This document shows positions 15,625 to 62,812 of a DNA stretch of 64,000 nucleotides, piece by piece. Numbering within the stretch: position 1 is the stretch's first letter; each line of letters begins with the position of its first letter. The stretch comes from Tidjanibacter sp. (lineage in GTDB: Bacteria; Bacteroidota; Bacteroidia; Bacteroidales; Rikenellaceae): assembly GCA_017466345.1 (NCBI GenBank), contig JAFTUI010000017.1, positions 1 through 64,000 on the forward strand, in the 5' to 3' direction. A program made the position numbers and the translations under genes. A model generated the notes under the pieces. That model was not told where the DNA came from, did not search any database, and saw only the letters and a program-made list of their open reading frames with translations.

Positions 15625-16050
15625 ATGAAAAAAGTTTTTATGACCTGCCTTGCGGCGGTGTTTACCTTCTTGTCGGTGAGTGCTGCCGAGATTACGCTCA
15701 AACAGCTGCCCCAGCAGGCTCAGCAGTTTATCCACGAGTATTTTGCTAAGGACCAGATACGCAAAATACACTCCCATATGCACCGCCACGGGGCGAGCTA
15801 CAATGTGCTCTTTACCGATGGCTCGAAGATTAACTTCGATGCGAGCGGTCAGTGGACAAAGATTAAACTCCGCAACGACTCCATCCCCGTAGAGATTATC
15901 CCCGAGTATATCACGACCTACATCTGGGATAACTACCCCAACGAGGCTATTATGTGCATCGAAACTGAGGGTGCGGGTCACGAGGTGGAACTGTCGAGCG
16001 GCACCGAACTGACCTTCAACCCCAAGAAAGGGATTGTGAAGATTGACTAA
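15625..16050 (+). CDS. PepSY-like secreted protein
   Basis: A 141-residue protein with a signal peptide (MKKVFMTCLAAVFTFLSVSA) and a PepSY-like domain (PF11396 type): QLPQQAQQFIHEYFAKDQIRKIHSH, YNVLFTDGSKINFDASGQWTKI, then a second half VEIIPEYITTYIWDNYPN..I..IETEGAGHEVELSSGTELTFN. Such Bacteroidales proteins are periplasmic and of unknown role. A copy of the dispersed stop-proximal hairpin element follows directly. Confidence 0.85.
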   Translation: MKKVFMTCLAAVFTFLSVSAAEITLKQLPQQAQQFIHEYFAKDQIRKIHSHMHRHGASYNVLFTDGSKINFDASGQWTKIKLRNDSIPVEIIPEYITTYIWDNYPNEAIMCIETEGAGHEVELSSGTELTFNPKKGIVKID

Positions 16051-16140
16051 AACGTGCAAGCACATCTTGCGGGTAACTTTTGCACCAAAATTCAGGGGCG
16101 GCTTCCTCATTTACGCTTGGTAAACTGCGGAGCCGCTCCC
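16051..16140 (+). repeat. Stop-proximal hairpin element, copy A
   Basis: Begins at the stop codon of the PepSY-like gene. It has the CAAGCACATCTTGCGGG start, a TTTTGCACCAAAA centre and the main hairpin 16095-16140 with inner TTTAC/GTAAA pair and outer GGCGGCTTCC/CGGAGCCGC arms. Same family as elements at 31.88, 53.35, 55.17, 62.27 and 62.54 kb. Confidence 0.75.
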
Positions 16141-16149
16141 TCTTGTTTG

Positions 16150-16202
16150 CTCCCATTACTCCCATATCTCTTATTACTCCCATTTCTCCCATTTCTCCCA
16201 AG
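16150..16202. repeat. Period-9 array (TTCTCCCAT type)
   Basis: About six degenerate nonamers (ACTCCCATT, TCTCCCATT) after the hairpin element; the same array type occurs at 14.33 kb on the opposite strand. Confidence 0.7.
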
Positions 16203-29313: not shown

Positions 29314-31035
29314 TTATGAGAACCAATAGAGTTGAGCCAGCGAGAGCGATTTGGCGGGTGTGAGTTCCACGAGTTTGCCATCCACCCTCACTTTGAATGT
29401 TTCGGCATCGACCTCAATTAGTGGCGTCTGGTCGTTGAGGACCATATTGCCCTTTGTGAGTGAGCGAGTGCCCCTCACAGCCATCACATTCCTTTGGAGT
29501 CCCAAACGCTCCTTTATTCCACACTCCAATGCCGCACGCGAAGTGAAGGTCCAGCAAGTGGCGGGCAGGGCACCTCCAAAGGCACCGAACATAGGACGAT
29601 AGATGATGGGCTGAGGGGTGGGAAGCGAAGCGTTGGGGTCGCCCATCAGCGACCAAGCAATCATTCCGCCCTTGATAATCATCTTGGGCTTCGCGCCAAA
29701 CATTGCGGGCTCCCACAATACCAAGTCGGCAACCTTGCCCACCTCCACCGACCCAAAGAGGTCGTCAATGCCGAATGTTATGGCGGGGTTGATAGTGACC
29801 TTTGCCAAATAACGCCTCACACGGAAGTTGTCGTTGCCTTCGGCATCTTCGGGGAGCCTTCCGGTGCGGTTTTTCATATAGCACGCCATCTGCATAGCCC
29901 TCATAAAGTTCTCTCCCACACGCCCCATAGCCTGCGAGTCGGACGAAATCATCGACAGAACGCCTCTGTCGTGGAGGTAGTTCTCGGCAGCCTGCGTTGC
30001 GGGGCGCACACGGCTCTCGGCAAATGCCACATCCGAGGGAATCTTGGGGTTGAGGTTGTGGCACACCATAATCATATCGAAGAGTTCTGCCTGGGAGTTT
30101 ATGCCGTAGGGGAGTGTGGGATTGGTCGAGGAGGGGAGTATGTTCCTCTCGCCAGCCACCCTCAAAAGGTCGGGGGCGTGACCACCACCCGCACCCTCGG
30201 TGTGGTAGGTGTGGATTGTTCTGCCATTTATGGCGGCTATGGTGTCCTCCACATAACCTCCCTCGTTGAGGGTGTCGGTGTGTATTGCCACCTGCACATC
30301 GTAGAGGTCGGCAGCCCTTAGCGCAGTGTCTATCGCCTTGGGCGTGGAGCCCCAATCTTCGTGCACTTTCAGTCCCATAACACCCCTTTCTATCTGCTCG
30401 CTAATAGGCTCCAAGGTCGAACAGTTGCCCTTGCCCAAGAAGCCGAAGTTTATGGGCAGGTTCTCCACACTTTGTATCATACGGTCTATGTTCCAGTTGC
30501 CCGAAGTGATGGTGGTGCCGTTGGTGCCGTCCGTAGGACCTATGCCGCCACCAATCAGGGTTGTGATACCGCCACTGAGGGCTGTATCAACCTGCTGGGG
30601 TGAGATGACGTGAACGTGACCGTCTATGCCTCCGGCTGTGAGTATAAGGTGCTCGCCACTTATGGCGTCTGTGGAGGCTCCTGTTACCATATTGCGACTT
30701 ACACTGTCCATAGTGTTGGGGTTGCCCGACTTACCTATGCCGACTATCCTGCCATCTTTGATACCCACATCAGCCTTCACAACTCCCAGCACTGCATCTA
30801 TAATAGTGACGTTGGTAATCACAAGGTCGAGCGAGCCACTCTGGGAGGTGGCGGTGTTGTCCAAACCCATACCATCCCTCAGTGTCTTGCCACCGCCATA
30901 GACCACCTCATCGCCATATCCGCCCCTCAGGTCGCGCTCAATCTCCACATAGAGCGAGGTGTTGCCAAGTCTTATCTTATCCCCCACAGTGGGTCCGTAG
31001 AGGTCGTTGTACTGTTTTCGCGATATTTTTGCCAT
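29314..31035 (-). CDS. ureC: Urease subunit alpha (catalytic)
   Basis: A 573-residue urease alpha subunit. Start at the ATG at 31035 ([24 protein letters not shown]); the longer frame overlaps ureB. Nickel and active-site elements: HVHVISPQQ, the carbamylated Lys in GLKVHEDWG (~222), [21 protein letters not shown], catalytic Cys-His in MVCHNL near 323 and AFAESRVR. The second His of the common CHHL flap motif is Asn here, but the catalytic His is retained. It hydrolyses urea to ammonia and carbamate in the cytosol. Two nt separate it from ureB. Confidence 0.97.
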
Positions 31036-31793: not shown

Positions 31794-32100
31794 ACCTTTT
31801 TATTCTATTGGTTGTTTGTGTTTCTTTTTACCCACGAGCGCATCTCGCGGGCATCTGCTGCGTTACGCTCGGGCTCGGAATGCTCATTTACGCCTTGTAA
31901 ACTCCGCTTCCTCGCCCTTCGCAAGCCTTGCATCTGCTCCACGATATGCACTCGGGCTCTTTGGAGCGTTTGTTTCTGCAAATCGCAACCGTGTGCTAAT
32001 TACCCATTATTTTTCTGCTCCACCGCGGGCATCTGCTGCGTTACGCTCGGGCTCTAAATGTCTAATGTCTAACGTCTAACGTCTAATGTCTAACGTCAAT
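31794..32100. repeat. Region upstream of ureA: 31-nt direct repeats and hairpin element copy F
   Basis: A 31-nt sequence (CGCGGGCATCTGCTGCGTTA...) occurs identically at 31846-31876 and 32024-32054. Between them, about 31881-31912 carries the TCATTTAC/GTAAACT core of the stop-proximal hairpin element. From 32056 a TCTAACG/TCTAATG heptad array runs to about 32092. No gene is visible; the ureA promoter is expected here. Confidence 0.65.
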
Positions 32101-51780: not shown

Positions 51781-53343
51781 ATGAAGAGGAAAACCGATTT
51801 TTTGGTCATAGGTAGTGGCGTTGCAGGGCTCTCTTTTGCCCTCAAAGCGGCTGAGAAAGGTCGCGTAACTATCGTCACCAAAGGAGAAATTAGGGAGTGT
51901 AATACCAACTACGCACAAGGCGGTATCTGCTGTGTTACCTACCCACCCGACACCTTCGAGAAACATATCGAAGATACGATGGTGTGTGGTGCAGGTAAGT
52001 GTGACGAGGCGGCTGTTCGCAAGGTCGTAGAGGGTGCGCCAGAGGGTATTAGGGAGTTGATAGAGTGGGGTACCCACTTCGACCGCACACCCGATGGACG
52101 CTACTCGCTCCACCGCGAGGGAGGACACACCGAACACCGCATACTCCACCACCGCGACCTGACGGGTGCCGAGATAGAGCGTGCTCTCATCACTGCTGTA
52201 AAGCGCCACCGCAACATCGACATCCTCGAACACCACTTTGCAGTAGATGTGCTCACACAGCACCACTTGGGGCAGGAGGTCAATCGCCATATGGACAACA
52301 TAGAGTGCTATGGTGCCTACGTTATGGACGTCAAGCGCGAGAAGATTATGACCATCCTTGCCAAATTTACGGTGGTTTGTACGGGTGGTGTGGGCAACCT
52401 CTACCACACAACCACCAACCCTTCGGTGGCTACGGGCGATGGTATCGCTATGGTACATCGCGCAAAGGGTGTCATTGAGAATATGCAGTACATACAGTTC
52501 CACCCCACAACGCTCTACAACCCCACCGAGCGTCCTGCATTCCTCATTACGGAGGCTATGAGGGGCTATGGTGCAATACTCAAATTGCCCAATGGCAAGG
52601 AGTTTATGCACAAATACCATCCTATGGGGTCGCTTGCTCCGCGCGATGTGGTGGCTCGCAGTATGGACCACGAGATGAAGATTACGGGCTCGGAGTACCT
52701 CTACTTAGACGTGCGCCACAAGCCCGCCGAGGAGACCATCCGCGAATTCCCCAACATCTACCAGAAGTGCCTTACGCTCGGCATAGACATCACTAAGGAT
52801 ATGATTCCCGTAACCCCCGGTGCACACTACTGCTGCGGAGGTGTAAAGGTCGACCTGAATGGCGAGAGTACCATACACCGACTCTACGCCCTCGGCGAGA
52901 GCTCTTGTACGGGTTTGCACGGAGCCAATCGCTTGGCTTCCAACTCCTTGATTGAGGCTGTGGTCTATGCGCGTGCGGCGGCAGATCACGCCACCTCTCG
53001 CATTGCAGAGGTAGATTATGAGGAGCGCATTCCCGATTGGAACGATGACGGAATGGTTGCCACTGAGGAGATGATTCTCATCACGCAGAACTATAAGGAG
53101 ATGCAGCAGATTATGAGCTACTATGTGGGCATTGTGCGCTCCAACTTGCGCTTGGAGAGGGCTTTGAGGCGTATGGAGATAATCTACCGCGAGACCGAAG
53201 AACTCTACCAGAAGAGTCGTCTGAATGTCAACCTCTGCGAACTGCGCAACCTCATAGAGGTCGGCTATCTTATCATCAAGCAGGCGGCTGCAATGAAAGA
53301 GAGTGTGGGATTGCATTACACGATAGACTACCCCACAAATTAG
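51781..53343 (+). CDS. nadB: L-aspartate oxidase
   Basis: A 520-residue flavoprotein of the succinate dehydrogenase/aspartate oxidase family: FAD site GSGVAGLSFALKAAEKGRVTIVTKGE, NTNYAQGGICCVTYPPDT, HREGGHTEHRILHHRDLTG, TTLYNPTERPAFLITEAMRGYGA, and GAHYCCGGVKVDLNGEST..LYALGESSCTGLHGANRLASNSLIEAVVYA. First step of de novo NAD synthesis. nadA and nadC are not adjacent. A stop-proximal hairpin element follows the TAG directly. Confidence 0.96.
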   Translation: MKRKTDFLVIGSGVAGLSFALKAAEKGRVTIVTKGEIRECNTNYAQGGICCVTYPPDTFEKHIEDTMVCGAGKCDEAAVRKVVEGAPEGIRELIEWGTHFDRTPDGRYSLHREGGHTEHRILHHRDLTGAEIERALITAVKRHRNIDILEHHFAVDVLTQHHLGQEVNRHMDNIECYGAYVMDVKREKIMTILAKFTVVCTGGVGNLYHTTTNPSVATGDGIAMVHRAKGVIENMQYIQFHPTTLYNPTERPAFLITEAMRGYGAILKLPNGKEFMHKYHPMGSLAPRDVVARSMDHEMKITGSEYLYLDVRHKPAEETIREFPNIYQKCLTLGIDITKDMIPVTPGAHYCCGGVKVDLNGESTIHRLYALGESSCTGLHGANRLASNSLIEAVVYARAAADHATSRIAEVDYEERIPDWNDDGMVATEEMILITQNYKEMQQIMSYYVGIVRSNLRLERALRRMEIIYRETEELYQKSRLNVNLCELRNLIEVGYLIIKQAAAMKESVGLHYTIDYPTN

Positions 53344-53440
53344 GCGAGCGTGCCTTGTGGGTGCTTTTTGCACCAAACTGCGCATCGCAACGTCCTCATT
53401 TGCGCTGAGCAAACTGCGGAGTTGCTCGCTTGTTTGGCAC
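53341..53440 (+). repeat. Stop-proximal hairpin element, copy B
   Basis: Starts at the nadB stop codon (TAGGCGAGC...). Contains GGTGCTTTTTGCACC and the core TCATTTGC-GCTGA-GCAAACTG with outer arms around CGCAACGTCC/CGGAGTTGC, then TTTGGCACAAAAATC. Most diverged of the copies. Confidence 0.7.
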
Positions 53441-53470
53441 AAAAATCTCACCACAAAACCCACTCGCGGA

Positions 53471-53577
53471 GTTGAGAGTTAAGGTCGTTAAAGTCCTTAA
53501 AGTCCTTAAAGTCCTATAAGCCTTATAAGCCTTATAAGCCTTATAAGCCTTAGGACTATTGACGTTAGACGTTAGAC
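53471..53577. repeat. Composite nonamer/heptad array in the prfC leader
   Basis: TTAAAGTCC nonamers, CCTTATAAG nonamers (four in a row), the motif CTTAGGACTATTGAC, then GTTAGACGTTAGAC, ending 10 nt before the prfC start codon. It should be part of the prfC 5' untranslated region or promoter. Confidence 0.75.
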
Positions 53578-53587
53578 AAAAAAGACT

Positions 53588-55165
53588 ATGACACTAAAAG
53601 AAGAGATAAAACGCAGGCGTACGTTCGCCGTTATTGCCCACCCCGATGCGGGTAAAACCACACTCACAGAGAAACTTCTGCTCTTTGGTGGTGCTATCCA
53701 CGTTGCGGGTGCCGTAAAGAGCAACAAAATCAAAAAGACCGCCACCAGCGACTTTATGGAGATTGAGCGACAGAGGGGTATCTCGGTCGCCACTTCGGTT
53801 ATGGAGTTCGAGTATGAGGGTACCAAAATCAACATTCTCGACACCCCCGGTCACGAGGACTTTGCCGAGGATACCTATCGCACGCTCACCGCTGTGGATG
53901 CCGTAATTATCGTGATTGATGGTGCAAAAGGTGTGGAGAGCCAGACACGCAAACTTATGAACGTGTGCCGTATGCGCTCAACGCCCGTTATGGTCTTTGT
54001 GAACAAACTCGACCGCCCCTGCAAGGAGCCTTTTGAACTGTTGGAGGAGATTGAAAAGGAGTTGCAGATTGCAGTTCGCCCTCTCTCGTTCCCCATTGGT
54101 AGCGGTAACTCGTTCCAGGGTGTCTACAATATCTACGATGAGAGCCTTGCTCTGTTCAAAGAGGTTGATAGACAATATATTGCTGAGAGTGTCCATCTGA
54201 CGCTCGATGACCCTCAGCTGGGAGAGTATATCGGTGCGGGTAATGCGGCGGAGTTGGAGGAGAACTTGGAGATGGTGGCAGAGATGTTCGAGCCCTTCGA
54301 TAGGGACCTCTATTTGCAAGGTCTGCTGGCTCCCGTATTTTTCGGTTCGGCAGTGAATAACTTTGGCGTGAGGGAACTTTTGGAAACCTTCATCCGCATT
54401 GCACCCTCGCCCCACGCAGCACCCACCGAAACACGCCTGGTGCAGGCTGCTGAGGAGAAGATGACGGGCTTTGTCTTTAAGATTCACGCCAATATGGACC
54501 CCAACCACCGCGATAGGCTTGCGTTCTTGAAAATTTGTAGCGGTACTTTTGAACGTGGTAAGAACTACCTCCACGTTCGTAGTGGCAAGCAGATGAAATT
54601 CTCCTCGCCAAGCGTCTTTTTGGCAGAGAAGAAGTCGGTTGTAGACACTGCCTATCCGGGCGATATTGTGGGTTTGCACGATACGGGCAACTTTAAGATT
54701 GGCGACACCTTCACCGAGGGCGAGAAGCTCAAATTTACGGGTATCCCCTCCTTTGCTCCCGAGATGTTCCGCTATATTGAGAATGCCGATCCGTTGAAGT
54801 TCAAACAACTCGCCAAAGGTATTGACCAACTGATGGATGAGGGTGTGGCTCAGCTCTTTACCTCCTCGCTCAATGGTCGCAAAATTATCGGTACGGTGGG
54901 AGCCTTGCAATTTGAGGTTATACAATACCGCTTGGAGCACGAGTATAGCGCAAAGTGCCGCTGGGAGCCTATTGCTATCCATAAGGCGTGCTGGATTGAG
55001 AGCGATAATGCCGCGCAACTTGCCGACTTCAAGAAACGCAAATTTACCAATATGGCAGTGGATAAACACGGCAGAGATGTCTTCCTTGCCGACACCTCCT
55101 ACGCCCTGCAACTTGCCATCGAGAAATTCCCCGATATAAGGTTTAAGTTTACCTCCGAGTTTTAG
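53588..55165 (+). CDS. prfC: Peptide chain release factor 3
   Basis: A 525-residue translational GTPase: [21 protein letters not shown] (G1), [16 protein letters not shown] (G2), DTPGHEDF (G3), [14 protein letters not shown] (G4), and the RF3-type C-terminus [25 protein letters not shown]3 releases RF1/RF2 from ribosomes. The leader is full of tandem repeats, so the promoter could not be located. The TAG stop flows into a stop-proximal hairpin element. Confidence 0.97.
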
Positions 55166-55275
55166 CGAGCACATCTCGCGGGTGAATTTTGCACCGCACT
55201 TCGAAAGGCGAGTTCCTCATTTGCGATAAGCAAACTGCGGACTCGCCTTCTCGTTTGGCACAAAATTCCCTCCGT
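55163..55275 (+). repeat. Stop-proximal hairpin element, copy C
   Basis: Begins at the prfC TAG: TAGCGAGCACATCTCGCGGG, then GGTGAATTTTGCACC, then the main hairpin 55204-55249 (AAAGGCGAGT/ACTCGCCTT outer stem, TTTGC/GCAAA inner stem), then TTTGGCACAAAATTCCC. The best-formed copy together with D. Confidence 0.8.
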
Positions 55276-55721
55276 TCTATGCGTTTTTTGTCGTGGGGTG
55301 GGGGTGAGGGGTGTTAAGGACATTAAGGACATTAAGGACATTAATGCCCTTAAACTCCTATAAGCCTTAGGACTATTGACGTTAGACGTTAGACGTTAGA
55401 CAAAACAACAGACCTCTCCCGCCTTCGGCACCCTCCCCTAACTTAGGGGAGGGTTGTTAAGGTCATTAAGGTCATTAAGGTCATTAAAGCCCTTATACTC
55501 CTGCTATTCCTGTCATTCCTATCACTCTTGTTAAAAAAATACATAATTTTCAATTCTCAATTTTCAATTTTCGCAAATGCGAGTCGAGCGAGGGCAGAGA
55601 AAACAAGTTTTCTATGCTGAGCGGGAGCATTTTAGACGAAAAAACATTTTTTTTCGTCAATTCTCAATTCTTTATTATATCTTTGTAGGTTAGTTGGGAA
55701 AATCTTATAACACAAAATAAT
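55276..55721. other. Gene-free region with arrays, upstream of ileS
   Basis: TTAAGGACA nonamers (55312-55345), CTTAGGACTATTGAC, three GTTAGAC heptads (to 55402), a CCCTCCCCTAACTTAGGGGAGGG palindromic repeat (about 55429-55452), TTAAGGTCA nonamers (55453-55485), CCTGTCATT nonamers (to about 55530), TCAATTT heptads (55543-55573), and a -7 box TATCTTTG (55678-55685). No coding sequence is credible. Confidence 0.65.
55678..55685 (+). promoter_or_regulatory. Promoter -7 element of ileS
   Basis: TATCTTTG 36 nt upstream of the ileS start. No T-box leader is visible. Confidence 0.45.
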
Positions 55722-58700
55722 ATGAGCGGTAAAAAATTCAATGAGTACAAAGGACTCGACCTGCCCGAGTTGGGCTTGGAAGTCCTCAAAAAGTGGGATG
55801 CTGACGACACATTCCACAAGAGTATATCGACCCGTGAGGGTCATCCCACATTTGTCTTCTATGAGGGTCCTCCCTCGGCAAATGGTATGCCCGGTATCCA
55901 CCACGTTATGGCGCGTACGCTGAAAGACGTTATCTGTCGTTTCAAAACCCAGAGCGGCTATATGGTACATCGCAAAGCAGGTTGGGATACTCACGGTCTG
56001 CCCGTAGAGTTGGGTGTGGAGAAGAAACTCGGCATCCGTAAGGAGGATGTGGGTGTTAACATTTCCATCGAGGAGTACAACCGCACTTGCCGCGAGTCGG
56101 TAATGGAGTTTACGGGCAAGTGGGAGGAACTCACTCGCCAGATGGGCTATTGGGTGAATATGGACGACCCCTACATTACCTACGACAATAAGTATATCGA
56201 AACCCTCTGGTGGATGCTCTCGGAACTCTACAAGAAAGGTCTGCTCTATAAGGGCTTTACTATTCAGCCCTACTCGCCCGCCGCAGGTACGGGTTTGTCG
56301 AACCACGAGCTCAACCAGCCCGGTTGCTACCGCGATGTGAAAGACACCACCTGTACGGCTCAGTTCAAGGTTGTGCGCAATGCCGAGAGCGAGAGCCTCT
56401 TTGAGGATGTCGAGGGCGACCTCTACTTCCTGGCTTGGACCACTACCCCCTGGACACTGCCCTCGAATACCGCTCTGGCAGTAGGTCCTTCGATTGAGTA
56501 TGTAAGGGTTAAGTGCGCCAATCCCTATACGGGTATCCGACAGACCGTCATTATGGCTAAGGCTCTTGTGGGCACCTATTTCACAAAGAAGATGGAGGGT
56601 ACCTACACCGTTGAGGAACGCACCTGGAAAGGCTCCGACCTTGCAGGTGTTCGCTACGAGCAGTTGATGGATTGGATGCGCCCCGATGGTGACGCTTTCC
56701 GAGTTATTACGGGCGACTATGTGAGCGTGGCAGATGGTACGGGTATCGTACACATTGCTCCCACCTTTGGTGCCGATGACGACCGCGTGGCTAAGCAGGC
56801 AGGCATTGCGCCTATGTTGCTCGTTGACAAAGCGGGCAAACAGCAGCCTATGGTCGATAAGCAGGGTAAGATGTACCTCATTGAGGACCTCGACCCCGAG
56901 TATGTAAAGAACTTTGTTAATGTGGAGAAATATGCCGAGTGGCAGGGTAGGTTCGTGAAGAACGCCTATGATGAGAACCTTACTGAGGAGGATGCAACCA
57001 TCGATGTTGATATTGCCGTAGGTCTGAAACTCGAAAACAAGGCTTTCAAGATTGAGAAACATACCCACAACTATCCCCACTGCTGGCGTACCGATAAGCC
57101 CGTATTGTACTATCCTCTGGACTCGTGGTTTATCCGTACAACAGCCGTTAAGGATAGGCTCATAGAACTCAACAAGACCATCTATTGGAAACCCGAGTCG
57201 ACCGGTACGGGTCGCTTTGGCAAGTGGTTGGAGGGCTTGGTGGATTGGAACCTCTCGCGTAGCCGCTTCTGGGGTACCCCTCTGCCCGTATGGGCTACGG
57301 AGGACTACTCCGAGATGAAGTGTATCGGCTCGGTGGAGGAACTCAAAGCCGAGGTTGAGAAGGCTGTTGAGGCAGGTTTGATGAGCGAGAACCCCTACAA
57401 GGACTTCGTTGTGGGCGACTTCTCGAAGGAGAACTACGACAAGATTGACCTCCACCGCCCCTATGTAGACAACATTATCTTGGTGTCGAGCAAGGGCGAG
57501 CCTATGCGCCGCGAGAGCGACCTTATTGACGTGTGGTTCGATAGTGGCGCAATGCCCTACGCACAGGTACACTATCCATTCGAGATGACCCGCGAGGAGT
57601 TCGAGAAAGTATATCCTGCCGACTTCATCGCTGAGGGTGTGGACCAGACTCGTGGTTGGTTCTATACGCTCCACGCTCTGGCAACAATGCTGTTCGATAG
57701 CGTAGCATTCAAGAATATCATCTCCAACGGCTTGGTGCTCGATAAGAACGGCAACAAGATGTCCAAACGCCTCGGCAATGCTGTTGATCCATTCGAGGTT
57801 ATGGATAAGTATGGTGCAGATGCTACAAGGTGGTATATGATTAGTAACTCGCAGCCCTGGGATAACCTCAAATTCGATGTTGACGGTGTTGACGAGGTAA
57901 GGCGTAAATACTTCGGTACACTCTACAATACCTACGGCTTCTTTGCCCTCTACGCCAATGTAGACGGCTTTACGGGCAAGGAGGCAGAGATTCCCGTTGC
58001 GGAGCGTCCGGAGATTGACCGCTGGATTATCTCCACTCTCAACTCGCTCGTGAAGGAGGTTACCGAAAGGCTCAACGACTACGACCCCACACCCGCTTCG
58101 AGGGCTATTCAGGAGTTTGTGGGCGAGAATTTGTCGAATTGGTATGTTCGACTGAACCGTAAACGCTTCTGGGGTGGCGGTATGACCAGCGATAAACTTG
58201 CTGCATACCAGACACTCTACACCTGCCTCGAAACTGTGGCACAACTCTCGGCTCCCTTCGCACCATTTTTCAGCGACAGGCTCTTTACTGACCTCAACGA
58301 GATGAGTGGTCGTCACGAGGGCTCCGTACACCTCAACCTCTTCCCCACCTGCAATGAGGCACTCATTGATAGCGACTTGGAGGAGATGATGGCTCTGGCA
58401 CAGAAGAGTACCTCTATGGTGCTGGCTCTGCGTAGGAAGGTGGGCATCAAGGTGCGCCAGCCTCTGACGAAGGTTATCATCCCCATCCTTGACTCGGATA
58501 TGGGACGTAGGTTGGAGGCTGTGAAGGCTTTGGTTATGGGCGAAGTGAATGTTAAGGAGGTAGAACTCATTACCGACACTACGGGTCTTATTACCAAACG
58601 CATCAAACTCAACTTCAAGAACTTCTGCTCGCGCTACGCTAAGTTGGCGAAACCTATGGCTGCACTTGTTGCGACCTTCTCGCAAGAGCAGATTGCCGCT

Positions 58701-59120
58701 ATTGAGGCTGCCGAGCAGACCACTTTGGAGGTTGCAGGCGAGAGCGTAGTTGTAACCCCCGCCGACTTCGATATCACCTCGGAGGATATGCCCGGCTGGC
58801 TCGTGGCAAGCGAGGGTAAACTCACTGTGGCACTCGATGTTACCGTAACGGAAGAGTTGCGCAAGGAGGGCTTGGCAAGGGAACTTGTAAACCGCATCCA
58901 AAATATCCGTAAGGAGAGCGGCTTCGAGGTTACCGACCGCATCAAGGTGGAGATTGAGAAGAAGGAGATGCTCGTGGGAGCCATTGAGGCATTCGGTGGC
59001 TTCATCGCCCAGCAGACCCTGGCTCTGAGCGTTGTTCTTGCCGAGATGCCCGCCGGCGACTTTGTGGTCGATAGCGACATCGATGACGAACCCCTCAAAA
59101 TCGCCGTCACTAAGGCATAA
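55722..59120 (+). CDS. ileS: Isoleucine-tRNA ligase
   Basis: A 1132-residue class I synthetase. HIGH-region PSANGMPGIHHVMART, catalytic core with GWDTHGLPVELGVEKKLG, CP1 editing domain (WTTTPWTLPSNTALAVGPS and GTGIVHIAPTFGADDD), KMSKR loop NKMSKRLGNAVDPFEVM near residue 680, anticodon-binding and a long C-terminal extension. Size and C-terminal form fit the long IleS type (IleS2-like) common in Bacteroidota, which in other organisms is less sensitive to mupirocin; that property is inference here. Single gene with its own promoter. Confidence 0.97.
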   Translation: MSGKKFNEYKGLDLPELGLEVLKKWDADDTFHKSISTREGHPTFVFYEGPPSANGMPGIHHVMARTLKDVICRFKTQSGYMVHRKAGWDTHGLPVELGVEKKLGIRKEDVGVNISIEEYNRTCRESVMEFTGKWEELTRQMGYWVNMDDPYITYDNKYIETLWWMLSELYKKGLLYKGFTIQPYSPAAGTGLSNHELNQPGCYRDVKDTTCTAQFKVVRNAESESLFEDVEGDLYFLAWTTTPWTLPSNTALAVGPSIEYVRVKCANPYTGIRQTVIMAKALVGTYFTKKMEGTYTVEERTWKGSDLAGVRYEQLMDWMRPDGDAFRVITGDYVSVADGTGIVHIAPTFGADDDRVAKQAGIAPMLLVDKAGKQQPMVDKQGKMYLIEDLDPEYVKNFVNVEKYAEWQGRFVKNAYDENLTEEDATIDVDIAVGLKLENKAFKIEKHTHNYPHCWRTDKPVLYYPLDSWFIRTTAVKDRLIELNKTIYWKPESTGTGRFGKWLEGLVDWNLSRSRFWGTPLPVWATEDYSEMKCIGSVEELKAEVEKAVEAGLMSENPYKDFVVGDFSKENYDKIDLHRPYVDNIILVSSKGEPMRRESDLIDVWFDSGAMPYAQVHYPFEMTREEFEKVYPADFIAEGVDQTRGWFYTLHALATMLFDSVAFKNIISNGLVLDKNGNKMSKRLGNAVDPFEVMDKYGADATRWYMISNSQPWDNLKFDVDGVDEVRRKYFGTLYNTYGFFALYANVDGFTGKEAEIPVAERPEIDRWIISTLNSLVKEVTERLNDYDPTPASRAIQEFVGENLSNWYVRLNRKRFWGGGMTSDKLAAYQTLYTCLETVAQLSAPFAPFFSDRLFTDLNEMSGRHEGSVHLNLFPTCNEALIDSDLEEMMALAQKSTSMVLALRRKVGIKVRQPLTKVIIPILDSDMGRRLEAVKALVMGEVNVKEVELITDTTGLITKRIKLNFKNFCSRYAKLAKPMAALVATFSQEQIAAIEAAEQTTLEVAGESVVVTPADFDITSEDMPGWLVASEGKLTVALDVTVTEELRKEGLARELVNRIQNIRKESGFEVTDRIKVEIEKKEMLVGAIEAFGGFIAQQTLALSVVLAEMPAGDFVVDSDIDDEPLKIAVTKA

Positions 59121-59165
59121 CAAACAAAAAGGCGCTTGGGAGAGCCTCTGCGCCCGATAATGACA

Positions 59166-59203
59166 ATTTTTTAAGCCTGCCAATTTTGGTGGGCTTAAAA
59201 ATT
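59166..59203 (+). terminator. Terminator-like palindrome after ileS
   Basis: TTTTTAAGCC/GGCTTAAAAA stem with an inner TGCCAATTTTGG hairpin, 46 nt past the ileS stop. Confidence 0.6.
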
Positions 59204-59268
59204 ATTGGCGAAAAAGTTGCGTATATGTTAAGAAATTATTACCTTTAACAAACCAAAAACGCTAAACT

Positions 59269-59655
59269 ATGTCACAGGAAGTTGAAAAAACCAGATATTC
59301 CGATGAGGAATTAGCCGAATTCAAGGAGATTATCCTCGATATGCTCGGCAAGGCAAAGGACGACTATGAGCTTCTGCGCTCGTCAGTGAACAACTCGGCA
59401 AGCAACGACACCGAGGATACTTCGCCCACCTTCAAGGTGCTCGAAGAGGGTGCTGCAACGCTCACAAAAGAGGAGATGGGGCGCTTGGCACAACGCCAGC
59501 TCAAATTCATCCAGCACCTCGAAGCAGCACTCCTGCGCATCGAGAACAAAACCTACGGCATCTGCCGCGAGACGGGCAAACTCATCCCCAAGGAGCGTCT
59601 GCGCGTAGTGCCTCACGCAACCCTCTCGGTGGAGGCAAAGGAGAATAGGCGTTAG
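59269..59655 (+). CDS. TraR/DksA family zinc-finger-like protein
   Basis: A 128-residue protein: helical N-terminus DEELAEFKEIILDMLGKAKDDYELL, then coiled-coil through LTKEEMGRLAQRQLKFIQHLEAALLRIENKTYGICRETGKLIPKERLRVVPHAT. The C-terminal zinc-ribbon of DksA is degenerate: only one Cys of the usual four remains, so zinc binding is unlikely. Members bind RNA polymerase secondary channel in well-studied species. The stop codon overlaps a GTG start of the RNase H gene (TAGTG). Confidence 0.9.
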   Translation: MSQEVEKTRYSDEELAEFKEIILDMLGKAKDDYELLRSSVNNSASNDTEDTSPTFKVLEEGAATLTKEEMGRLAQRQLKFIQHLEAALLRIENKTYGICRETGKLIPKERLRVVPHATLSVEAKENRR

Positions 59656-60167
59656 TGCTCGGCACGACACATCTCGGGGCAAAATCTGTTAGCAAAGAAG
59701 TAGAATTGCCAAACGTCACGATATACACCGATGGCTCTGCGCTCGGCAACCCGGGTAGGGGAGGCTATGGAGTTGTGCTCCTGTCGCCGCCCTACCGCAA
59801 GGAGTTGAGTGCGGGCTTTCGTATGACCACCAACAACCGTATGGAACTCTTGGCGGTGTGTGTGGCGTTGGAGGCTTTGAAATTCGAGGGTACGGATGTG
59901 ACGCTCTACTCCGATAGCCGCTATGTGGTTGATGCTGTGGAGAAAGGGTGGCTCTTCGGCTGGGAGAAAAAGGGCTTTGCGAAGGCTAAGAACCCCGATT
60001 TATGGATGCGTTTTCTGAGAGTATATCGCCGCCATAGAGTACGGTTTGTGTGGGTAAAAGGGCACGCCACGACTGTTGAGAACAATCGCTGTGACGAGTT
60101 GGCGGTGGCTGCCGCAAATGGCACAAACCTCGCCGAGGATGTGGGATATAAAAAAGCAGAAGAATAG
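59655..60167 (+). CDS. rnhA: Ribonuclease HI
   Basis: A 170-residue RNase H: YTDGSALGNPGRGGYGVVLL, MTTNNRMELLAVCVALEAL, YSDSRYVVDAVEKGWLFGWEKKGF, VKGHATTVENNRCDELA, giving the Asp-Glu-Asp-Asp catalytic set. It removes RNA from RNA-DNA hybrids. No ATG fits; the GTG at 59655 overlaps the previous stop and implies coupling, while a TTG at 59706 would leave just PNVTIYTDG and equally match family N-termini. The 5' end up to ~59700 resembles a degraded stop-proximal hairpin element, favouring the later start. Confidence 0.9.
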   Translation: MLGTTHLGAKSVSKEVELPNVTIYTDGSALGNPGRGGYGVVLLSPPYRKELSAGFRMTTNNRMELLAVCVALEALKFEGTDVTLYSDSRYVVDAVEKGWLFGWEKKGFAKAKNPDLWMRFLRVYRRHRVRFVWVKGHATTVENNRCDELAVAAANGTNLAEDVGYKKAEE

Positions 60168-60203
60168 AACAGTCCTATTATATATTATCCTTAGGACGTC
60201 AAA

Positions 60204-60249
60204 AGCAGGCTTACTGTGACCGAATTTTTGCGGTTATAGTAAGCCTGCT
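60204..60249. terminator. Bidirectional terminator
   Basis: AGCAGGCTTACT/AGTAAGCCTGCT 12-bp stem with an inner hairpin, between convergent rnhA and the DUF4294 gene; overlaps the DUF4294 stop codon. Confidence 0.75.
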
Positions 60250-60848
60250 TCGTAGAGGATAATGATTTGCTCGATGAGTTTGTCCTCGCCCTGTGTGGGG
60301 TCGTACTCTTGTTTGAGGTTGGCTCGGAAGATGCGGGCGATGGTGTTCCAAAACTTGGCGGCAAACTTACCACGGAACTCCTCCACAATCTGATACGATG
60401 TGCGCTCCGTCTCGCGGTCTATGAGGCGGATGAGTATTTTGCCTTGCGAGTAGGTCATCTTTTCCAGCACTGGCGTGTAGCGCTTTATGAGCTCTTTTTC
60501 GAGAGCCTTGGTTATCTTGTTGCGCTCTTTTTCGTTCTGCACGGTGTCGAGTTGTGCGTTGAGCTGCTGAAAGAGGATGCGGGCATCAACAGCGTAGGGA
60601 TAGACAGCTTTCACGTTGCGTATCAGTCGCTTGTGACGCTTTATGTCGCCAATGGATTTGAACTCTATGATGTCGGATAGTTGCACAACATAGGCGGTGT
60701 CGCCCGTTATGGGGTCGACCTCCGTACCCGCTATATACCCACCACCATAGCGAGAGTAGGGGACACTGCGAGTGGTGTGTGACCGCTGAGCCTCTGCCTT
60801 GCCCGCCACGCACAACACCAAAGCCACTATCAACCAAAGTCGTTTCAT
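60234..60848 (-). CDS. DUF4294 family exported protein
   Basis: A 204-residue protein with signal peptide (MKRLWLIVALVLCVAGKAEA). The DUF4294 core follows: GDTAYVVQLSDIIEF, LIRNVKAVYPYAVDARILFQQLNAQL, ERNKITKALEKELIKRYTPVLEKMTYSQGKILIRLIDRETERTSYQIVEEFRGKF, FWNTIARIFRANLKQEYDP. Bacteroidota-specific, function unknown. Single gene. Confidence 0.88.
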   Translation of the reverse strand: MKRLWLIVALVLCVAGKAEAQRSHTTRSVPYSRYGGGYIAGTEVDPITGDTAYVVQLSDIIEFKSIGDIKRHKRLIRNVKAVYPYAVDARILFQQLNAQLDTVQNEKERNKITKALEKELIKRYTPVLEKMTYSQGKILIRLIDRETERTSYQIVEEFRGKFAAKFWNTIARIFRANLKQEYDPTQGEDKLIEQIIILYEAGLL

Positions 60849-61032
60849 TTGTGCAAATATAACGTATTTTTTCCATTATATATTTTCTCGCGAGGCTAAG
60901 TGGCTGAAAGTGGGTAAAATTTAGCGGAAATTATTAAAAATTTTGAAAAATGTTTATACCTTTGTGTGCCTGCTTGTCGAATAAGATGACGGGCAAAGGT
61001 TAGCACAGGTTAAACTCTAAATATAAACACTT

Positions 61033-62265
61033 ATGAAACAAGCAATTGCTATTCTTACAGGTGGCGGTCCTGCACCCGGTATGAACACCGTTGTGGGCTC
61101 GGTTGCCAAAACTTTCATTACCAAAGGTTACCGCGTAATCGGTCTTCACGAGGGCTACACCGGTCTTTTCAAGGAGAATGCTCGCCACGAGGATATTGAC
61201 TTCCGCCGTGCAGACGACATCTTCAATCAGGGTGGTTCGTACCTCCAAATGAGCCGCTTCAAACCCACCGATGCGGATTTTGAGAACAACTTTAACCTCA
61301 AATTCTTCCAGGAGAACAACATCAAACTCCTCGTAACCGTAGGTGGTGACGACACCGCTTCGACTGCAAACCGCATCGCTAAGTTCCTCGAAGCAAAGAA
61401 ATACCCCATCGCCAACATCCACGTTCCCAAGACTATCGACAACGACCTTCCTCTGCCCGCAGGTGCTCCCACCTTCGGCTACGAGTCGGCAATGGACAAG
61501 GGTGCTGTGATTGGTAGGGCTGTCTATTCGGACGCTCGCACCAGCGGTAACTGGTTCATCATCGCCGCTATGGGTCGCTCGGCAGGTCACTTGGCTTGCG
61601 GTATTGGTGCTGCTTGCCACTATCCTATGATTGTCATCCCCGAGATGTTCAACAAGACCGAGATTACCATCGACAAGATTGTAAACCTCGTAATTTCGTC
61701 CATCATCAAACGCAAACTTATGGGTATGGACTACGGTGCTGCAATGGTGTCGGAGGGTGTATTCCACAGCCTTTCGGACGAGGAGATTAAGAACGCAGGC
61801 GTGAACTTCTCATACGATGAGCACGGTCATCCCGAACTTGGCAAGGTGTCGAAGGCTCACGTCTTCAACGAGATTTTGGAGAAGAAGCTCAAAGCCCTCA
61901 AAATCAAGGTTAAATCGCGCCCCGTAGAGATTGGTTACGAGGTACGTTGCCAGACTCCCGTAGCGAGCGACCTTTTGTATTGCACCACTCTCGGTATGGG
62001 TGTCTACAAACTGTTCAGCGAGGGTAAGACCGGCTGTATGGTCTATGTGGCTCAGGATGGTCAGATTAGCCAACTCTACCTCAAAGACCTCCAAGACCCC
62101 ACCACCGGCAAGATTCCTCCCCGTTTGGTTAATCCCGATGGCGACCAGTTCCAGGGCCTCGTGAACAACATTCTTTGCTACATTACCCCCGAGGATTACG
62201 AGGCTGCGAAGGCTTATGTTGCTAATCCTGAGGAGTATGATTTTAAGCGCATTTTGAATTGGTAG
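61033..62265 (+). CDS. 6-phosphofructokinase, pyrophosphate-dependent type
   Basis: A 410-residue phosphofructokinase: GGGPAPGMNTVVGSV at the N-terminus, VGGDDTASTA with GGDD at residues 104-107, PKTIDNDLP with Lys133, and MGRSAGHLACGIG. In ATP-dependent enzymes the corresponding positions are Gly (GGDGS and PGTIDND); Asp107 and Lys133 are the hallmark of PPi-dependent enzymes, making the reaction reversible. It phosphorylates fructose-6-phosphate with PPi. A stop-proximal hairpin element begins at its TAG. Confidence 0.93.
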   Translation: MKQAIAILTGGGPAPGMNTVVGSVAKTFITKGYRVIGLHEGYTGLFKENARHEDIDFRRADDIFNQGGSYLQMSRFKPTDADFENNFNLKFFQENNIKLLVTVGGDDTASTANRIAKFLEAKKYPIANIHVPKTIDNDLPLPAGAPTFGYESAMDKGAVIGRAVYSDARTSGNWFIIAAMGRSAGHLACGIGAACHYPMIVIPEMFNKTEITIDKIVNLVISSIIKRKLMGMDYGAAMVSEGVFHSLSDEEIKNAGVNFSYDEHGHPELGKVSKAHVFNEILEKKLKALKIKVKSRPVEIGYEVRCQTPVASDLLYCTTLGMGVYKLFSEGKTGCMVYVAQDGQISQLYLKDLQDPTTGKIPPRLVNPDGDQFQGLVNNILCYITPEDYEAAKAYVANPEEYDFKRILNW

Positions 62266-62388
62266 CGAGCGAATCTCGCTGGTGAATTTTTCACCAAATT
62301 TCAAAGGCGGCTTCCTCATTTACGCTTAGTAAACTGCGGAGTCGCCTTCTTATTTCGCAAAAAATTCCCTCAGCGATATTCTACTCGC
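62263..62388 (+). repeat. Stop-proximal hairpin element, copy D
   Basis: Begins at the pfk TAG (TAGCGAGCGAATCTCGCTGG), followed by GGTGAATTTTTCACC and the main hairpin 62303-62348 (AAAGGCG.../CGCCTT outer, TTTAC/GTAAA inner). Bases 62314-62388 are repeated nearly perfectly at 62551-62625. Confidence 0.8.
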
Positions 62389-62530
62389 GTTAGGTCTTGG
62401 GTTTGGCACAAAAATCCCTCCGTTCTCTGCATTTTTACCGCTTGGGGAAGGCAAACTGCGGACTCCGCTTTCTCGTATGCCTTGCATCCATCACGTTATC
62501 TGCGTTTTTACGGTCGGGAGTATTCCCTGC
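62389..62530. other. Repeat fragments between hairpin element copies D and E
   Basis: Contains TTTGGCACAAAAATCCC and CCGTTCTCTGCATTTTTACCG, echoing sequence after copy C, plus a partial GGCAAACTGCGGACTCCGC core. No gene. Confidence 0.55.
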
Positions 62531-62625
62531 ACAAAAGCGTCACTCTGACGCCTCATTTACGCTTAGTAAACTGCGGAGCCGCCTTCTTATTTCGCAAAAA
62601 ATTCCCTCAGCGATATTCTACTCGC
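62531..62625 (+). repeat. Stop-proximal hairpin element, copy E (75-nt duplicate)
   Basis: Bases 62551-62625 match 62314-62388 with one difference (GCC for GTC), including a downstream segment ending GCGATATTCTACTCGC. This copy is not at a stop codon, so it is likely a local duplication. Confidence 0.85.
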
Positions 62626-62812
62626 TGCGTTTAACGTCTAACGTCAATAGCCCTAAGGCATATAGGGCATATAGGGCATATAAGGCTTGTGGGAGTTATG
62701 GGAGCTGTCGCAAAGCGACCGAAGGGGGCGTGTGTCTGTAAAAAAAGTGCGGCTGCAAAAGCAACCGCACCTCAATTCTCAATTCTCAAGTCTCAATTCT
62801 CAATTCTATTGG
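62626..62812. repeat. Heptad/nonamer arrays between pfk and adk
   Basis: TCTAACG heptads with GTCAATAGCCCTAAGG (62631-62659), GCATATAGG nonamers (about 62659-62685), GTGGGAGTTATGGGAG, and TCAATTC heptads at 62773-62812 that run up to the adk stop codon. Confidence 0.7.
62738..62771 (-). terminator. Terminator of adk
   Basis: Read on the minus strand: GTGCGG(T)TGC/GCA(G)CCGCAC stem with loop TTTT followed by seven T. It lies 35 nt past the adk stop, after the heptad array. Confidence 0.8.

Follow-up and report, generated by a model that had tools for sequence, protein, structure and literature searches.

Imperfect hairpins behind stop codons in a Tidjanibacter genome, a probable branch of a palindromic miniature element family of the Bacteroidales

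The hairpin and its copies

The DNA stretch analysed here (the window) covers the initial 64 kb of contig C8 (JAFTUI010000017.1) of Tidjanibacter sp., whose draft genome comprises 1.82 Mb in 30 contigs and is 95.6% complete. Behind unrelated genes of the window, identified by Pfam as those of a FAD-binding/fumarate-reductase flavoprotein (nadB), RF3 (prfC), a phosphofructokinase (pfk) and a PepSY-like protein, lies the same hairpin element of ca. 127 nt. A covariance model recognises six copies, all on the forward strand (Table 1). Four of them start 0–6 nt after a stop codon, as a preliminary description of this DNA had claimed for these four genes; one is a partial tandem copy, and one lies between divergent genes. 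Two further places at 31881 and 62531, which had been assigned to the same module, indeed belong to copies of it, but the former is not at a stop codon, being located between ureA (a Urease_gamma match on the minus strand) and crcB, and the latter is a truncated tandem copy. In what follows, handles beginning with G, L and C denote genomes, loci and contigs, respectively.

Table 1. Copies of the hairpin element and other repeats, in window coordinates
Feature	Coordinates	Strand	Basis
Copy behind PepSY-like gene (stop 16048-16050); right outer arm lost	16057..16181	+	covariance model, 66.4 bits; PepSY_like Pfam match; fold
Divergent CTCCG-type copy between crcB and the start of minus-strand ureA; no stop codon in front	31835..31959	+	covariance model, 74.7 bits; flanking genes
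Copy right after nadB (stop TAG 53341-53343)	53345..53471	+	covariance model, 108.4 bits
Copy right after prfC (stop TAG 55163-55165)	55166..55292	+	covariance model, 114.2 bits; orthologue comparison; fold
Copy right after pfk (stop TAG 62263-62265)	62266..62391	+	covariance model, 100.9 bits
Lone right half, GYAAACTGCGG to GCGTTTTT	62451..62509	+	pattern match 62451-62465; sequence reading
Partial tandem copy, model positions 14-109	62515..62610	+	covariance model, 42.5 bits
Short-repeat arrays	53480-53600, 55310-55400, 62625-62690 and many related loci	both orientations	

The core of the element, CTCATTTRC-N5-GYAAACTGCGGA, is found in the window five times exactly and once at three mismatches, and never in 100 shuffles. 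Genome-wide, 100 places match it at two or fewer mismatches, and the reversed pattern used as a control matches none. The covariance model, which has 127 positions and was built from 77 copies of several species drawn from 178 extracted ones, finds at least 142 copies in the whole genome, where 145 candidates were scored. Near-identical copies are dispersed among these loci, for example, L049 and L082 (194 of 197 positions), L033 and L034 (133 of 134), and L018 and L025 (137 of 139).

The module is a single imperfect hairpin with fixed bulges. From the outside inward, an outer helix of ca. 17 bp is followed by a GG/CTCC internal loop, a second helix, another internal loop (near ACTGCGATA on the 5′ side and near TTCTTGTTT on the 3′ side) and a third helix. 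Farther in, a bulged T is followed by CC/GG and CA/TG, which a T.C mismatch separates, then by a bulged C, and the hairpin closes with the tip, TTTRC-loop-GYAAA. The three hairpins in a row that had been described at first, GCGAG/CTCGC, GGTGAATTTTGCACC and a long one, turned out to be nested parts of this one structure. The left outer arm has its partner in the far right arm; both differ from copy to copy, yet they stay complementary to each other. Many copies have an A-tract and a T-tract at their ends. In the copy at 16057 and in prfC copies, which lack the right arm or have one of a different type, folding gives a local hairpin. The window's prfC copy is a mosaic of a GCGAGC-kind left arm and a GCGTTTTT-kind right arm, and in some copies such as this one the outer helix is lost and replaced by the local hairpin because the two arms are of different types. 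The calculated fold of the nadB copy is −49.5 kcal/mol for the sense strand and −64.6 kcal/mol for the antisense strand, and the corresponding z-scores of the pfk copy are −6.92 and −7.42.

Pairing was evaluated in 51 copies of the window's genome, chosen because a stop codon is no more than 60 nt away; 50 of them were used for the counts on the helix end, target duplications and attC boxes. Standard pairs occupy 85.9% of the pair cells, compared with 68.0% in shuffled and 37.7–46.7% in slid controls. Double changes are found in 388 cells against 131.7 after shuffling, and the covariation score is 0.459 against 0.165, a value reached by none of 500 shuffles. The earlier proposal that compensating changes maintain the fold is thus borne out. 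The helix ends sharply: toward the outside, the paired fraction is 0.86, 0.82 and 0.76 in successive columns, drops to 0.44 in the next (shuffled 0.33) and is no different from shuffled data farther out. Among the 48 copies with a stop nearby, the column paired at 0.76 most commonly coincides with the last base of the stop codon (19 copies), and it is at most one base away from it in 32. At L020 (gene end GAGTCCAAGTAAATCG) and L023, the right arm is complementary to the upstream coding end beyond the stop codon, as if copied from it. Such long extensions are single cases, and a general copying of arms from coding sequences was rejected, since pairing beyond the stop codon is at the shuffled level.

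The tip varies in a strictly paired manner: 112 copies have TTTAC/GTAAA, 66 have TTTGC/GCAAA and none is mixed, counts that are unbiased only for the agreement of R with Y as TTTRC...GYAAA served as the search pattern for most loci. Other paired tips are CTTAC/GTAAG (nine copies), CCTAC/GTAGG (two) and CATAC/GTATG (two), and in five of the 196 anchored copies the tip is a different one, mostly without pairing.

Incomplete copies are also present. Searches with the half patterns returned right halves standing alone and a small number of such left halves. Lone right halves often come after a full copy (the one in Table 1; L001, after 1590; L061) and are preceded by ACYGCTTGGGRA-like sequence. 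An arrangement of separated halves around a transposase gene was considered and discarded, as the half patterns yielded lone halves and no autonomous element was noticed. Furthermore, in nine of the 30 contigs (C5, C12, C13, C14, C17, C18, C19, C22 and C29) a listed copy is no more than 500 nt away from a contig end, so the repeat may break the assembly.

Placement behind stop codons

Genes are taken here as open frames, called without a gene finder. Upstream of 97 of the 98 distinct copies, an open frame of 50 codons or more on the same strand ends within 400 nt, and one copy is without it. Such frames are common, and the anchoring at stop codons therefore rests on distance, not on the presence of a frame. 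In 53 of the 97 copies, the core lies 47–53 nt behind an in-frame stop codon of the same strand, and in 76 it lies within 75 nt. Eleven copies are at 65–72 nt, several of which have an additional, truncated left arm in the interval, and ca. 12 of the 21 farther copies are second copies, 115–328 nt after another one. The clustering of copy starts at stop codons, suggested before from the window, thus extends to the whole genome, with exceptions. L018 and L025, as read by eye, apparently lie on the start side of an opposite-strand frame; a further exception is the window copy at 31835. In the window's genus, the orientation of a copy is nearly always that of the upstream gene; an opposite-strand gene ends between −15 and 60 from the right end in nine of 50 copies, a set selected for proximity to stop codons. 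Elements were also sought behind RNA genes, which would tell whether the stop codon as such matters: the ten exceptional loci have no tRNA beside the element, and a single tRNA, distant from the element in L039, appeared with Rfam at gathering score.

The same placement is found in relatives. In the named relatives, 81 of 88 copies have such an open frame, 36 of them with the core at 45–59 nt. A copy starts at −2 to +3 of the stop codon in 21 of the best 30 among 82 matches in G083, and at −2 to +4 in 15 of the best 30 among 105 matches in G053. The starts of ordinary terminators in the window's genome are scattered between −9 and +114, unlike the elements, which mostly lie within a few bases of the stop codon; the tight position is therefore not a general property of terminators. 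Behind stop codons, the ordinary hairpins of this genome have long, uninterrupted stems that reach 28 bp, and some overlap the last codons. The stop codon itself is also biased: TGA ends one of 56 genes with the element and 29 of 125 without it (Fisher p = 0.00014).

Comparison of orthologues shows how the slot is occupied. Directly after the stop codon of prfC, the element is present in four of 19 genomes, namely, the window's genome, G053, G092 and G103. Eight other close relatives with 92–97% identity (G102, G094, G096, G086, G098, G088, G076 and G080) have an ordinary terminator-like hairpin in that place, as read by eye, and seven distant genomes with 81–82% identity have no element in the stretch examined. 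The protein aligns to its last residue without extension in 18 of the 19 genomes. The stop codon of prfC tracks the type of the arm: TAG goes with CGAGC, and TAA with AAAACGC or AAAAGCGC. Among 76 element-bearing genes, 23 were matched in the fetched relatives, and 13 of the 23 have an element at the same stop codon in at least one relative, a share that is inflated because most of the relatives' loci were fetched for holding the element. These same-stop elements are usually of another type, e.g., in L072_3100 and L132, whose proteins are 98% identical.

Duplicates within one genome point in the same direction as the prfC stop codons. In the most recent duplicates of the window's genome (L049/L082, L005/L073 and L060/L083), homology runs from the T of the stop codon onward, and the orthologues and duplicates together support the notion that the element brings along its own TAA or TAG. 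In G083, near-identical copies lie between the stop codon and an ordinary terminator at L211, L214, L215 and L223, as read by eye. Six G083 genes have a sampled orthologue in G100: at L227 the element is present in both, at L220 and L223 the gene ends at the same place as in G100, at L214 and L226 it ends two codons earlier, and at L221 the longest frame runs 13 nt into the element. The earlier suggestion that insertion may target stop codons fits both the starts of the G083 copies and the duplicates that are homologous from the T of the stop codon. The ordinary terminators at the four G083 loci have a common frame, TGAGAG...CTCTCA, with matching double changes inside (GCAAC/GTTGC and GTGGT/ACCAC), and look as if they themselves were a dispersed palindrome family.

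Strand of the fold and mobility across the order

A sense RNA under selection is expected to have more G.T pairs. Read on the sense strand, pairs that are mostly Watson-Crick have 48 G.T against 53 A.C in the 51 copies of the window's genome and 53 against 98 in the 77-copy set. Two details count against the absence of a sense-RNA signal: helix 2 alone has seven G.T and one A.C, and the poorly paired columns have 40 G.T, 29 of them in one column, and 33 A.C. The complement of the gene strand folds better in 68 of 76 copies of the window's genome, 101 of 102 of other species, 21 of 21 of G083 and 17 of 23 of G190 and G209, and with DNA parameters in 73, 101, 21 and 22 of them, respectively; the copies are related to each other, and these are not counts of independent events. 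For ordinary hairpins, the complement folds better in 11 of 32. Since there is no overall G.U excess and the opposite strand folds better, selection on the fold as a structure of the 3′ untranslated region (3′-UTR) of messenger RNA (mRNA), one of the roles proposed in the preliminary description, is not supported. The hairpin may possibly end or protect mRNA.

The element is not confined to one genome. Matches to the covariance model are present in 17 of the 24 genus genomes, with up to 145 candidates scored in each, and in 27 of 149 genomes of the order, with up to 23 scored in each, so that the counts per genome are lower bounds. In G190 and G209, genomes from other families of the order, units of 117–145 bp enclose this core. 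Their conserved end, GGGRSTTCTAAAAAT, is found at one or no mismatch 109 times in G190 (control 6) and 26 times in G209 (control 4). The flanks of 21 entries from these two genomes, two of which share a right end, have target duplications of 6–7 bp at matched offsets (z = 8.0 against shuffled partners), and exact duplications include CTTTAG, ATCAAG and CGATAG. For 16 of the 21 entries, which may have either orientation, a gene directed at the entry has its stop codon at most 25 nt away. These two distant relatives thus have ordinary terminal inverted repeats and 6–7 bp target duplications, and because of them the family contains classical miniature transposons. The elements of the window's genus have varying outer arms, no duplication seen, and a paired part that mostly starts within two bases of the third base of the stop codon.

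Probably, the hairpin belongs to a Bacteroidales-wide family of palindromic miniature inverted-repeat transposable elements (MITEs), whose branch in the window's genus propagates as DNA, anchored at the stop codons that close transcription units. The inner fold shared by this probable family comprises the tip, the bulged T, the T.C mismatch, the bulged C and internal loops that recur. That this branch moves without a detectable target duplication is likewise probable. A MITE lineage that often landed at the 3′ ends of genes, as seen in G190 and G209, may have entered the genus, where the element would occupy the slot between stop codon and terminator and would be tolerated because its own TAA or TAG is brought along. 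It would be moved by an enzyme supplied in trans that recognises folded or paired DNA, and recopying from gene to gene would take place as DNA. The complementarity of the arms could be kept by rewriting one arm from the other, through template switching or arm-to-arm conversion, as the double changes without wobble intermediates suggest; or the enzyme may need paired arms. Any effect on the 3′ end of mRNA would be secondary.

Several observations weigh against this assignment. Groups with different outer arms share the inner core, a constancy that an ordinary MITE does not require. A fixed terminal repeat was not found in the window's genome, the outer arms being paired but different between copies. 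Target duplications were sought and not found in the window's genome (best z 4.7 among 1482 combinations, a 2-letter match inside the arms) and in G083 (best z 3.1 of 182). Neither an autonomous parent nor a transposase with the ends of the element was noticed in 32 scanned loci, frames being listed for five of them. The anchoring at stop codons is more exact than would be predicted from a short target preference combined with selection against hits in coding sequences. Moreover, elements at the same stop codon in 13 of 23 comparisons could reflect a maintained function.

Other vehicles were considered for the spread. A system of REP sequences and RAYT transposases was rejected for want of a Y1_Tnp match (PF01797) in the genome, a 95.6% complete draft; among 24 genomes of the genus the domain is found in one, G065, which itself has no match to the element. 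Spread by a reverse transcriptase was rejected as well, because RVT_1 is found in four of 24 genus genomes, including the window's own, and is absent from most of the element-rich ones. Carriage by phages or plasmids was set aside too: a search with one element as query gave no match, and viral contigs have no exact core.

Alternative readings and known systems

A host element of the 3′-UTR is one alternative: a terminator or stabiliser of mRNA, kept by selection beside the stop codon and spread by gene conversion between 3′ ends. It would agree with the open frame upstream of nearly every copy, with the terminator-like hairpins that fill the slot in the eight close prfC orthologues, and with the same-stop elements in the biased sample of 23 genes. 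The surroundings resemble the ends of transcription units, in that the next same-strand gene lies within 60 nt in two of 16 element genes and in 31 of 83 others (p = 0.08). Likewise, an ordinary terminator is found at +125 to +325 in five of 48 element genes, to be compared with 27 of 138 at 0 to +200 at likely unit ends without the element. We consider this reading unlikely, as the mRNA strand has no overall G.U excess and the opposite strand is more stable, as ordinary terminators stand behind the element at the four G083 loci read by eye, and as the scattered starts of ordinary terminators imply that termination alone needs no start at position 0.

Another alternative, a recombination site of folded single-stranded DNA resembling attC, supposes that the strand opposite the mRNA folds, is handled by an integrase-like or other enzyme, and is added without duplication. 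The stability of the bottom strand, which ordinary hairpins do not share, the bulges that give the strand an identity, the orientation of most copies with the gene in front, the variable arms with strictly Watson-Crick tips and the missing target duplication in the genus would all be expected of it. Still, it is doubtful: the conserved part is the tip and not the outer ends, copies in G190 and G209 have target duplications, and no recombinase is linked to the element, no search for one having been made. The boxes of attC sites, RYYYAAC and GTTRRRY, are found at the left end of two and the right end of one of 50 copies and at both ends of none, and a true integron attC site was rejected for this absence. 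Improbable to the same degree is a DNA element directed at stop codons, in which a recombination system would recognise the folded strand opposite the mRNA and swap or place whole 3′ ends without duplication. Its unit, equally conjectural, would consist of its own stop codon, the hairpin and a terminator, placed precisely after the last sense codon of unrelated genes. If true, it would be a natural counterpart of frames that acquire attC-like sites, or a route coupled to translation through cleavage in the A-site.

Convergence of long intrinsic terminators, which would explain the shared slot behind prfC and the A- and T-tracts at the ends of many copies, is very improbable, being already contradicted by the core counts against both controls and by the near-identical dispersed copies, and opposed by the tip and bulges fixed across many families of the order and by copies away from gene ends.

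If the assignment to a palindromic MITE family is right, well over a hundred copies of one hairpin family are present in this genome, most of the placed ones behind genes, and the inner end of the family can be read almost to the base. Such a family would be a natural experiment on how mobile palindromes reach the ends of genes and on why the arms of inverted repeats stay complementary while their sequence changes; it may also account for breaks in the assembly.

Two further features of the region stand apart from the element. Short repeats form intergenic arrays, in which (GTCTAAC)n precedes CAATAGTCCTAAGG and (TATAGGGCA)n; present in both orientations, after elements as well as after other gene ends, they make up a second repeat system of the genome. 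(GTCTAAC)n lies within 300 nt of 18 of 48 element genes and 43 of 138 others, and in narrower windows of 12 of 48 and 20 of 138; it was not accepted as a tail of the element, there being no clear difference between the two groups. At window positions 30582-30882, a match to the Rfam family 5_ureB_sRNA lies antisense to the gene for the urease alpha subunit and probably scores through the coding sequence.

The element itself has no match in Rfam at gathering score, and below the threshold only microRNA models appear (E 0.06–4.6). A known RNA family in Rfam was thus rejected at this score, and together with the lack of a Y1_Tnp match this agrees with the view that no existing REP or Rfam family describes the element. 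Searches of the literature on palindromic or miniature repeats of Alistipes, Bacteroidetes and Bacteroidales and on YPAL gave no paper naming the family, which is weak evidence as subscription journals are mostly uncovered. HMP2_4205, a palindromic structured-RNA candidate from the human microbiome, is 132 bp long and comes from Bacteroidetes; candidates of this type are likened to the element by length and phylum alone, not by sequence (PMC8040213).

The size and dispersal of the element are those of a MITE (shorter than 200 bp, with at least 142 matches in its own genome), and terminal inverted repeats and target duplications are present in G190 and G209. Sites of the attC type are imperfect hairpins located just after reading frames, with the bottom strand folding better, conserved ends and a variable tip. 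The element shares with them the imperfect hairpin just behind frames and the better folding of the bottom strand, but it has a conserved tip, variable ends and no core boxes. REP sequences are palindromic and mostly lie behind genes like the element, but they are 20–40 bp long and tied to a Y1 transposase, whereas here the paired region has ca. 127 nt and no Y1_Tnp match exists. In a study of REP stems, G.T pairing was taken as a sign of transcription (PMC3733652), and the element differs from them in having no overall excess of G.T on the sense strand.

The closest known kind are the palindromic insertion sequences of the YPAL/ERIC type, with YPAL as the nearest, and the element is classed as a variant of these. 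In the original paper of 2006, YPALs are reportedly said to lie mostly just after stop codons and to overlap terminators. ERIC, NEMIS and RUP have a similar size class (107–155 bp), form hairpins and are mostly intergenic, but they have TA ends and terminal inverted repeats, and anchoring at stop codons is unmentioned in the passages concerned (PMC2229807). YPAL (RU-2) of Yersinia is described in the same passages as a dispersed palindromic miniature insertion of ca. 168 bp without TA ends and with internal inverted repeats, which targets places beside dyad symmetry, makes target duplications of 3–26 bp and is expressed together with upstream genes (PMC2229807). The element is likened to it by description, not by sequence, as a dispersed palindromic miniature insertion; it belongs to another phylum, and YPAL has target duplications, whereas none were found in the window's genus. 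Compared with YPAL, the element described here is anchored within a few bases of the stop codon, is oriented with the strand of the gene, has variable but matching arms and keeps its inner fold across the order.

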